Positions 7,835 to 10,599 of a DNA stretch of 51,032 nucleotides are shown piece by piece. The translations under genes and the position numbers were made by a program. Every line of letters starts with the position of its first letter. Within the stretch, counting starts at the first letter, position 1. The notes below the pieces were generated by a model. The model worked only from the letters and a program-made list of their open reading frames with translations. It had not been told where the DNA came from and did no database searches. Source of the stretch: Gammaproteobacteria bacterium. GTDB lineage: Bacteria; Pseudomonadota; Gammaproteobacteria; Pseudomonadales; Azotimanducaceae. The stretch spans positions 1 through 51,032 of the forward strand of contig JAPOYV010000109.1 in assembly GCA_026706385.1 (NCBI GenBank). Direction: 5' to 3'.

Positions 7835-7860
7835 CCACCGTCTCAAGACCAACGCGAAGA

Positions 7861-7886
7861 AGGGCGCCGAACGGCGCCCTTTTTTC
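7861..7886 (+). terminator. Rho-independent terminator of the porin-glnK-amtB operon
   Basis: AGGGCGCCG (7861-7869) and CGGCGCCCT (7872-7880) form a GC-rich stem, followed by six T residues (7880-7885). The T-tract with its flanking C residues is also the left copy of the transposon target duplication, so the terminator stays functional after the insertion. Confidence 0.92.
7879..7886. repeat. Left 8-bp target-site duplication of the IS1595-family element
   Basis: CTTTTTTC lies immediately outside the left terminal repeat and is repeated exactly at 10592-10599 outside the right one. Eight bases is the duplication length expected for this family. Confidence 0.93.
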
Positions 7887-7911
7887 GGGAATTGTGTAGC
7901 AAAATACACGA
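7887..7911 (+). repeat. Left terminal inverted repeat of the transposon
   Basis: This 25-bp repeat begins GGGAATTGTGTAGC and is perfectly inverted at 10567-10591. It contains its own small palindrome, GTGTA-GCAAAA-TACAC (7894-7909), a plausible transposase-binding core. Confidence 0.95.
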
Positions 7912-7917
7912 AAACCC

Positions 7918-7946
7918 TTGCACCACGCCACCCGACAACATAGAAT
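7918..7946 (+). promoter_or_regulatory. Putative sigma-70 promoter of the transposase gene
   Basis: TTGCAC (7918-7923) and TAGAAT (7941-7946) are separated by exactly 17 bases. They stand about 30 bases before the transposase ATG, just inside the left inverted repeat. An AGGGAGA ribosome site follows at about 7961. Confidence 0.6.
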
Positions 7947-7975
7947 AATCCACGAGTTCTAGGGAGAAACGACCA

Positions 7976-9004
7976 ATGGCAGTGATCGAGTACGACGCGA
8001 ACGGCAACCCGCACAACGAGTCCGGGAAGCGGATCGCGGAGACGATGAGCGTTGTCGAACTGTTCCGGCTGTTTCCCGACGCCGACGCCTGCTACGCATG
8101 GCTTGAGGAAGCCCGCTGGCACGGCCAGCCCGTCTGCCCGCACTGCGGCGGCATGGACAACATCCGCCCGCGCAAGAACCGCCCGCACTACTACAACCAC
8201 AAGGACTGCCGTAAGGACTTCTCGGTTACGACCAAGACGTGTATGCACGCTACCAAGCGACCGTTGCAGGATTGGATCTACGTGATCTATACGGTCGTCA
8301 CATCGCGCAAGGGCGTAAGCGCGTTGCAGATGAGCAAGGAGCTTGGCGTTCAGTACCGCACCGCGTGGCACATGCTCCACCGGGTGCGCGAGGCTTGCGG
8401 GCGCGGCGACTTCACTCTTGGAGGCACCGTCGAGGTTGACGAGACGTACATCGGCGGCAAAGAGGGCAACAAGCACGAGGTCAAGAAGCTCCATGCTGGC
8501 CGGGGCGCGGTCGGCAAGACGGCGGTGGCCGGTGTCCGCGAACGGGGCGGCAAGGTCAAGGCGCAGCCCGTCAAGCGCACCGACGCACACACGCTGATCG
8601 GCTTTGTCGAGGACGCGGTTGAACCCGGCAGCGTGGTCTACACCGACGACGCTGCGGCCTACGGGGCGTTGCCGTCCATCATCAACCAGTACCAGCACGA
8701 GACGGTCGCGCACGGCAGAGGCGAGTACGTTCGCGGAGACGCGCACATCAACAGCATCGAAGCTGTGTGGGCCGTCCTCAAGCGGAGCATCCACGGCACT
8801 TGGCACCACGTCTCGCCCAAGCACCTTGGCCGGTACGTCAACGAGGCGTCTTTCAGGCTCAACGAGGGCAACTGCGAGATTGACACCATCGACCGGATGG
8901 CGGAGTTCGCCGCCGGGATCGGTGGCAAGAAGCTTCGCTACGTTGACCTCATCGCACCAACAGGAGAATCGGCTACCCCCGTACCCGTCCATCCCGGGGG
9001 CTAG
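7976..9004 (+). CDS. IS1595 family transposase
   Basis: The 342-residue DDE-type transposase should recognise the terminal repeats and insert with 8-bp duplication. An N-terminal zinc-ribbon has CPHC at 54-57. Its second knuckle is His75-x-x-Cys78 instead of the usual CxxC, followed by the family phrase RKDFSVTTKT. The ISXO2-like catalytic domain has Asp155 (VEVDETYIGG), Asp224 (VYTDDAAAYG) and the Asn259/Glu262...Lys269 region (HINSIEAVWAVLKR), fitting the DDN/E-K pattern of this family. No disruption is seen, so it may be active. The methyltransferase frame begins three bases after its stop. Confidence 0.94.
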   Translation: MAVIEYDANGNPHNESGKRIAETMSVVELFRLFPDADACYAWLEEARWHGQPVCPHCGGMDNIRPRKNRPHYYNHKDCRKDFSVTTKTCMHATKRPLQDWIYVIYTVVTSRKGVSALQMSKELGVQYRTAWHMLHRVREACGRGDFTLGGTVEVDETYIGGKEGNKHEVKKLHAGRGAVGKTAVAGVRERGGKVKAQPVKRTDAHTLIGFVEDAVEPGSVVYTDDAAAYGALPSIINQYQHETVAHGRGEYVRGDAHINSIEAVWAVLKRSIHGTWHHVSPKHLGRYVNEASFRLNEGNCEIDTIDRMAEFAAGIGGKKLRYVDLIAPTGESATPVPVHPGG

Positions 9005-9007
9005 CCC

Positions 9008-10349
9008 GTGGGTGCGCCCAACTGGCAGAACCGGACGCTGTTCCGGGGAGACAACCTCACGTTTCTGCGGGCCATGAACTCCGAATCGGTGGACCTCATC
9101 GCCACTGATCCGCCGTTCAAGAAGGGACGCGACTTCCACGCCACGCCCGACAGTCTCGCCGAGGGTGCCAAGTTTCAGGATCGGTGGTCGTGGGAGCGCG
9201 ACGTGCACAACGAGTGGGTTGACCAGATCACCGACGACTTCCCGCGCTTGATGGAAGCAATCGAAGCGGCCCGCTACGCCCACAGCGACGGCATGGGTGC
9301 GTACATCTGCTTCATGGCCGTTCGGTTGTTGGAAATGCGGCGCGTTCTCAAGCCGACCGGGACGCTGTATCTGCATTGCGACCCGACCGCCAGCCACTAC
9401 CTCAAGGCCATACTTGACGCGATCTTTGGCCAACGGAACTTCCGAAACGAGATTGCGTGGTGCTACGCGGGGGGGGGGGATACCCAAGCGCGACTTTCCC
9501 CGCAAGCACGACCTCATCCTGCGCTACTCGAAGTCGAACAAGTGGGTGTACCAGCCCGTCTATCGACCGTACACCGAGGGCACGCAAAAGCGCGGCCGCA
9601 CGAAAGTCAAAGGCAAGTATTTCGACGCCGGGTTGAACAAGAAGGGTACGCCGGTCAACGACTGGTGGCCGGACGTGAAGAAGATCACAAGCCCCACCGA
9701 TCCCGAAAAGACGGGCTGGCCTACGCAGAAGTCGTTGGAACTCTACGGGCGCATCATCACCGTATCGAGCAACAAGGGGGACGTTGTGCTTGACCCGTTC
9801 GCGGGATGCGCCACTACCTGCGTGGCGGCCGAGCAACTGCAACGCCAGTGGGTAGGCATCGACCTGTGGGACAAGGCCAGCGAAGTCGTCGAGGACAGGA
9901 TGGCCAACGAAGTCGGCTTGTTCGGTCGCGTCAACGCTGTGGACGAAGTGCCGCAGCGCACTGACGAGGGCGAAACGGGAGCGCCGTTCCTGCGCGTGAA
10001 GGTCAGGGTCAAAGAACCCTCCGGGCCGCGTTGGAGCCGAAGGGAGATGTACGAATACCTGCTTGGACAGCACGGGGCGAAGTGCCAAGGTTGCGACCGG
10101 ACGTTTGATGACCCGCGATACCTGGAACTCGACCACAACACGCCGCGTTCGGACGGCGGGATCAATCACATATCCAACCGCATCCTGCTGTGCGGGCCGT
10201 GCAACCGGCTTAAGAGCAACACGTACACGCTCACAGGACTTCGACGGCAGAACAAGAAGCTGGGCCACATGGCCAACAGCGGAGTCGAGAATCCGACGCT
10301 GAAACGCATACGCGAGGAACGGACACGACAGCCGGGGTTGTTTGAGTGA
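9008..10349 (+). pseudogene. Beta-class DNA methyltransferase-HNH endonuclease fusion, frameshifted at a poly-G tract (possibly phase-variable)
   Basis: Two overlapping frames make one protein. The first (from GTG 9008) carries TDPPF (motif IV, residues 33-37) and MRRVLKPTGTLYLHCDP. The second carries KHDLILRYSKSNKW, motif I VLDPFAGCATTC, and a C-terminal HNH zinc-finger nuclease domain (CQGCDRTF ... LELDHNTPRSDGG ... LLCGPCNRLKSN). Motif IV before motif I marks the beta class (N6-adenine or N4-cytosine). The frames part at eleven consecutive G residues (9469-9479). Ten would give one 446-residue protein reading WCYAGGGIPKRDFPRKHD. As written, translation from 9008 ends at 9793 and loses motif I and the nuclease. 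This may be phase variation, slippage rescue, decay or a sequencing error. Confidence 0.85.
9469..9479 (+). repeat. Homopolymeric G(11) tract at the frameshift site
   Basis: Eleven G residues lie inside the methyltransferase coding region, between codons for Trp-Cys-Tyr-Ala and Ile-Pro-Lys. The tract length decides whether the methyltransferase-HNH frame is open; ten would be in frame. Confidence 0.9.
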
Positions 10350-10371
10350 CACCGATTGAGGGAGACGAGGG

Positions 10372-10560
10372 ATGAACCGCAAACAGTTCGACAAGACAGA
10401 GCGCCGCCCGGTGAGCAAGGCCAACTTCCTAGACGCGCTGCGGCAGATACTCACGACCGACCAGCCGGAGCCGCGCAAGTCGGAAAACCGGGAGCCGACG
10501 ACCGAGGAATTGAATAAGCGTTGGCGGCTTGACCGGCGCGACGGGAAGCCCGTTGGGTAG
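10372..10560 (+). CDS. Small hypothetical protein carried by the transposon
   Basis: This 62-residue, highly charged, soluble protein begins [19 protein letters not shown] and ends just inside the right inverted repeat. An AGGGATG-like ribosome region overlaps its ATG (GGGAGACGAGGGATG). I recognise no domain. It follows the methyltransferase-HNH stop by 22 bases on the same strand, so it is probably co-transcribed cargo and might assist or modulate the methyltransferase, the nuclease or transposition. No function can be assigned. Confidence 0.6.
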
Positions 10561-10566
10561 GGCGGC

Positions 10567-10591
10567 TCGTGTATTTTGCTACACAATTCCC
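10567..10591 (-). repeat. Right terminal inverted repeat of the transposon
   Basis: This is the exact reverse complement of the left 25-bp repeat, ending AATTCCC at 10591. Identity stops at the 26th base, which defines the repeat length. Confidence 0.95.
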
Positions 10592-10599
10592 CTTTTTTC
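10592..10599. repeat. Right 8-bp target-site duplication
   Basis: CTTTTTTC is identical to 7879-7886 and directly abuts the right inverted repeat. Confidence 0.93.

Follow-up and report, generated by a model that had tools for sequence, protein, structure and literature searches.

A transposon-borne methyltransferase gene interrupted by a run of eleven G may be a switch caught in one of its positions, a decaying gene, an assembly error or a gene read by slippage, and the question raised by this locus is which of these is correct. The window, i.e. the whole 51,032-nucleotide stretch of DNA that was analysed, holds a single homopolymer of at least eight of any base, and this G11 tract lies in a methyltransferase-HNH gene that starts 3 nt past the end of a transposase gene (Table 1). 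The pieces flanking the run comprise 153 and 289 residues, with PF01555 in both and PF01844 also in the second, and with the residues coded by the run they agree with the 446-residue full chain proposed in the preliminary description. Its view that the run alone breaks the reading frame is confirmed, no other lesion being seen in the gene. The 261-residue form indeed keeps DPPF; the other frame encodes DPFAGCATT, which we take to be motif I, and the HNH domain. The gene has the layout of a simple-repeat phase-variable methyltransferase, a slippage-prone, frame-changing repeat within the coding region. The G run alone is not extreme for the composition of the window, because 10 of 100 dinucleotide shuffles contain at least the window’s number of 9-G matches. 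The whole 5.1 Mb genome (G000) has only three G/C runs of at least nine, the window’s among them, all inside contigs; another of the three, a G11, falls within an open frame of 234 codons read from the opposite strand (L002, G000:C51:16792-16802). At G000:C96 about 54137-54146 (L005) a C10 immediately follows the start codon of a long reading frame and is in frame, the layout of a phase-variable gene; the product looks secreted and, by eye, PhoX-like.

The methyltransferase-HNH gene is the cargo of a complete IS1595-family transposon of 2.7 kb (7887-10591). Passenger-gene transposons of this family have a transposase, terminal repeats starting with GGG and target duplications of 8 bp, and the window element has a transposase scoring 198.5 bits against NF033547 (cut-off 75), perfectly matching 25-nt terminal inverted repeats and an 8-bp target duplication, placing it in the IS1595 family. 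A 62-residue frame behind the cargo gene matches nothing in PADLOC or NCBIfam, and the cargo sequence occurs once in the window’s genome. The element is inserted in a T-run (window 7857-7886) behind a hairpin that resembles a terminator, seemingly that of an ammonium-transporter-like gene (named by eye). L190, L015, L014 and L010 are elements of the same kind; all four have terminal repeats, those of L010 imperfect, and an 8-bp duplication read by eye from the flanks. In these four the cargo gene and transposase are convergent, and in the window they run in the same direction.

Table 1. Features of the transposon and of its interrupted cargo gene, in window positions.
Feature	Position	Strand	Basis
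Left copy of the 8-bp target duplication, CTTTTTTC	7879..7886		matches 10592-10599
Left terminal inverted repeat, 25 nt	7887..7911	+	repeat comparison
IS1595-family transposase, 342 aa, open	7976..9004	+	PF12762, PF12760; NF033547 above cut-off
261-codon frame from GTG to stop: N-terminal methyltransferase part with DPPF, missense past the G run	9008..9793	+	reading frame, Pfam
G11 tract	9469..9479	+	homopolymer count
Remaining methyltransferase (motif I) and C-terminal HNH domain, in the other frame	9480..10349	+	PF01555, PF01844; NCBIfam IscB-like HNH match below cut-off
Small open frame, 62 aa, within the element	10372..10560	+	open reading frame
Right terminal inverted repeat, 25 nt	10567..10591	-	repeat comparison
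Right copy of the 8-bp target duplication, CTTTTTTC	10592..10599		sequence

The methyltransferase half has RsrI, MboIIA, CcrM and type III Mod as its nearest solved structures, and the C-terminal part is nearest to the HNH domains of IscB-like, Cas9-like and maturase proteins. Both domains are joined in single open chains in six relatives (L010, L011, L012, L014, L017 and L215). The AlphaFold model of L010 is poor (mean pLDDT 49.8). Like single-chain restriction-modification enzymes (type IIG/IIC-like), the fused enzyme has methyltransferase and nuclease domains in one chain, and the cargo product may be an active enzyme of this kind.

We regard it as probable, though far from assured, that the window gene is subject to slipped-strand phase variation of a single-chain methyltransferase-nuclease. 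Gain or loss of one G during replication would shift the frame ahead of motif I and the HNH domain, so that the two activities would disappear and return jointly, and the consensus as sequenced would represent the OFF state. The run would change in length reversibly in populations and would be maintained by selection. Since each long run in this and related genes either precedes motif I and the nuclease, sits at the 5' end or, in one case (L368), is confined to the C-terminal part, a shift is not expected to leave the nuclease lacking its methyltransferase. Elsewhere in the genus, genome G015 contains two 3-kb copies (L089/L101), 99.83% identical, that differ by one gap, C13 in one and C12 in the other; this is the nearest hint of slippage, in an assembly of uncertain error rate.

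The related cargo genes were collected as 38 loci with 39 genes (L368 being two genes), gene spans being tblastn matches plus 75 nt. Left out were longer or distant methyltransferases (L016 and L019-L027; 10 of the 18 places of one search), the lower-scoring places of one search (7 taken) and L220, a 78-residue fragment with a stop; the 16 places of another search included three already in the set and two others in one region, and one further member, L245, came from searching the orders to which the L013 and L011 genomes belong. A G/C run of at least ten is present in 8 of the 39 genes, at four or five positions: five of these runs shift the downstream frame by +1, one of 13 G is in frame, and two are at the 5' end. 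At the window’s own site L216 has G11, also at +1, at a contig edge, and a few residues beyond it L386 (L378) carries the in-frame 13-G run. Just before motif I, L015 has G11 and L190 G10, both at +1, where other members have EGD or similar residues. In L368 a G11 at +1 falls in the C-terminal part of a methyltransferase of a second type that adjoins an IS1595-type transposase, and an intact methyltransferase-HNH gene follows downstream, so that two methyltransferase genes of different type stand in tandem behind the transposase (L368 600-3615). The C-terminal part of L369, an intact relative of this second-type gene, gives only a sub-threshold match to Mrr_cat (E 0.0094), and its motifs lead us to interpret it as a putative nuclease. 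L193 and L385 have C12 at the 5' end, their starts being guessed (GTG or TTG overlapping the upstream stop). The internal runs of at least ten, one in frame and five out, are states of different genes, not of one locus. In aligning relatives the window’s site has mixed Gly codons or other residues and an open frame. Plain codon chance at this site was our first impression, as most relatives have mixed Gly codons there, but it was set aside once runs were found to recur at other sites.

These runs are concentrated in the methyltransferase DNA. Eight runs of at least ten are found in 55,670 methyltransferase bases against one in 298,694 other bases of the same loci, and not one of even eight in 11,582 transposase bases. 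With the window’s run removed the enrichment gives a binomial p of 1.6e-5, which is optimistic because several loci share a genome or possibly ancestry: five come from G438, others also share genomes, and same-site runs may have a common origin. Loci with a transposase within 1 kb carry a run of at least ten in 6 of 13 cases, compared with 2 of the 25 others, L396 with its transposase 1.7 kb away being counted among the latter and flank length varying by locus (p 0.011, or 0.025 without the window). In the genomic background, counted as runs of at least ten preceded by another base, there are 3 in the 5.1 Mb of G000, 8 in the 2.5 Mb of the genome carrying L015 and between 1 and 43 in each of the other seven genomes checked, counts that leave out the genomes of L190, L216, L368, L385 and L386. 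Some genomes of the genus are far richer (213 in G009), partly through contig-end artefacts.

The enzyme family at large does not share this property. Viral relatives were gathered by a C-terminal alignment scan of viral_contigs (L108-L110 matching via the HNH part), and the best 80 of 182 have no run of at least ten in 97,907 methyltransferase bases, one run of eight and no broken frame (L119 and L154 hold two genes each). Such runs are therefore not general to the family; long runs instead characterise the cargo genes of these bacteria. A pattern for the window’s own site found no match in viral contigs, nor did the C-terminal piece match plasmids (E limit 1e-30) or phages (E limit 1e-25).

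A parallel is seen in other phage methyltransferases, which differ as enzymes from those of the transposon cargo. A scan of viral sequences for at least eight G ahead of motif I found 23 stretches, 18 of them distinct (duplicates flagged by script; L221-L243). All 18, selected for the run, have 9 or 10 G, and their upstream frame is in frame in eight, at +1 in eight and at +2 in two, these being states of different genes and not of one. The control was a viral scan, made without regard to any run, for the codons of GG[V][V/L]LDPF, which found at least 80 loci, 79 distinct among the matches listed; it omits genes whose upstream frame runs off the stretch, and L221 is in both sets. The 79 listed control genes contain one run of nine and one short upstream frame. 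The 10 out-of-frame genes among 18 in the run-selected set compare with the 1 short upstream frame among 79 in the listed control (Fisher p 3.5e-8).

The most serious rival to a switch, which we nonetheless think unlikely, is decay at a mutational hot spot, in which runs arise by use of GGG codons, slip once and kill a dispensable cargo gene, so that nothing is maintained. GGG is frequent among the Gly codons of the window genes (8 of 25 in the C-terminal piece, 5 of 35 in the transposase), which allows runs to arise where Gly is abundant, and most copies with a tract are out of frame. The frame changes in nine genes, in eight of them at a homopolymer of at least eight: at a G run of at least ten in the window, L015, L190, L216 and L368, at G8 in L387 and L392 and at A8 in L396, with L197 alone changing frame away from any homopolymer of eight. 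Decay does occur in the family, as L013, L191 and L213 are broken by ordinary in-frame stops, and L245 looks truncated at the 5' end; L218, in which two frames derive from a second HNH-like piece downstream, has an open main chain and was not counted as broken. However, the DNA around the stop-bearing genes has no transposase match or convincing terminal repeats, whereas the complete elements with a tract (window, L015, L190) have open transposases and show no lesion apart from the run. This finding, together with the in-frame 13-G gene of L386, contradicts the alternative raised in the preliminary description that all copies would be frameshifted and otherwise damaged. Moreover, the run in L015 and L190 replaces residues that vary in other members, indicating more than synonymous drift, and the transposase DNA of the same elements is free of runs of eight. 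The proposal of a phase-variable transposon-borne methyltransferase is thus supported in part, through runs that are recurrent, enriched, placed at several positions and found in and out of frame in different genes, with phage genes in both states. Weighing against a switch are the +1 offset common to all five internal out-of-frame runs of at least ten, the single in-frame run, the decayed members (L197 and L245 besides the three with stops), the lack of runs of at least ten in the 80 viral relatives and the poly-G artefacts in related assemblies.

Those artefacts bear on a second alternative, to which we assign a low probability, that the run lengths are assembly or sequencing errors at a homopolymer in metagenome-derived genomes and the true gene is in frame. 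Poly-G clusters or long stretches lie at or near contig ends in G009, G014, G028 and G035 and are probably sequencing artefacts, and the L216 run is itself at a contig edge. However, runs recur across independent assemblies and collections, G000 has just three of at least nine, all internal to contigs, and the enrichment in these genes concerns the presence of a run irrespective of its precise length; run-bearing phage genes divide about evenly between in frame and out. Programmed recoding, in which RNA polymerase or the ribosome slips on the G run to make a little full-length enzyme from a fixed +1 allele, is similarly improbable. In its favour, the +1 offset holds for every internal out-of-frame run of at least ten in the transposon genes and in 8 of the 10 out-of-frame phage genes, and a dangerous enzyme might well be kept at low expression. 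Against it, the 13 G of L386 preserve the frame, the other offset occurs in two phage genes, the G8 shifts of L387 and L392 are by our reading not +1, the position of the run within the gene varies, and five of five in one direction has a chance of about 6%.

Returning to slippage as the preferred reading, a wider proposal can be made only tentatively, and we consider it possible at best. A class of IS1595 transposons may carry single-chain methyltransferase-nucleases in which poly-G contingency tracts have evolved repeatedly at different positions, the element entering or persisting in a cell with its dangerous cargo OFF and throwing ON variants at high frequency. It would be a simple transposon whose restriction-modification cargo is phase-variable and either selfish or defensive, and some phage methyltransferases would offer a parallel. 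If this is true, a switchable epigenome and a barrier to foreign DNA could move between bacteria on one 2.7 kb transposon, and there would be a simple answer to how a transposon with a fused nuclease enters a new cell, i.e. switched off. Because some phage methyltransferases also have G runs ahead of motif I, the idea can be tested in several systems. Among the titles and abstract openings found in searches of open-licence literature, no paper is recognisable as treating such tracts in methyltransferases carried by transposons or phages.

Most known phase variation of methyltransferases concerns chromosomal systems of host-adapted bacteria. The window element is distinct from other IS1595-family passenger transposons in that its cargo is a methyltransferase-nuclease with a G tract, and RsrI, MboIIA and CcrM on one side and the IscB/Cas9-type HNH domains on the other are sequence relatives of its two halves, which here are fused in one chain. 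Phase-variable switching of type I and III systems has been reviewed (PMC11868660, PMC3711429, PMC12707154), and slipped-strand switching is described for type III mod methyltransferases, in some cases by poly-G or poly-C (PMC11868660, PMC3711429). In a phasevarion such a switch alters the expression of many host genes through methylation. Type III mod has separate Mod and Res subunits and is chromosomal, whereas the window gene encodes one chain with an HNH domain inside a transposon. Also close is pglX of the Streptomyces coelicolor Pgl system, for which G-tract switching of a methyltransferase is established, with reported contractions from 8 to 7 G and toxicity of PglX (PMC4365076). Like the window gene, pglX is a methyltransferase gene with a G tract, there switched by a change in tract length; unlike the window gene, PglX belongs to a chromosomal multi-gene defence system, has no HNH domain, is not transposon cargo and has a shorter tract.
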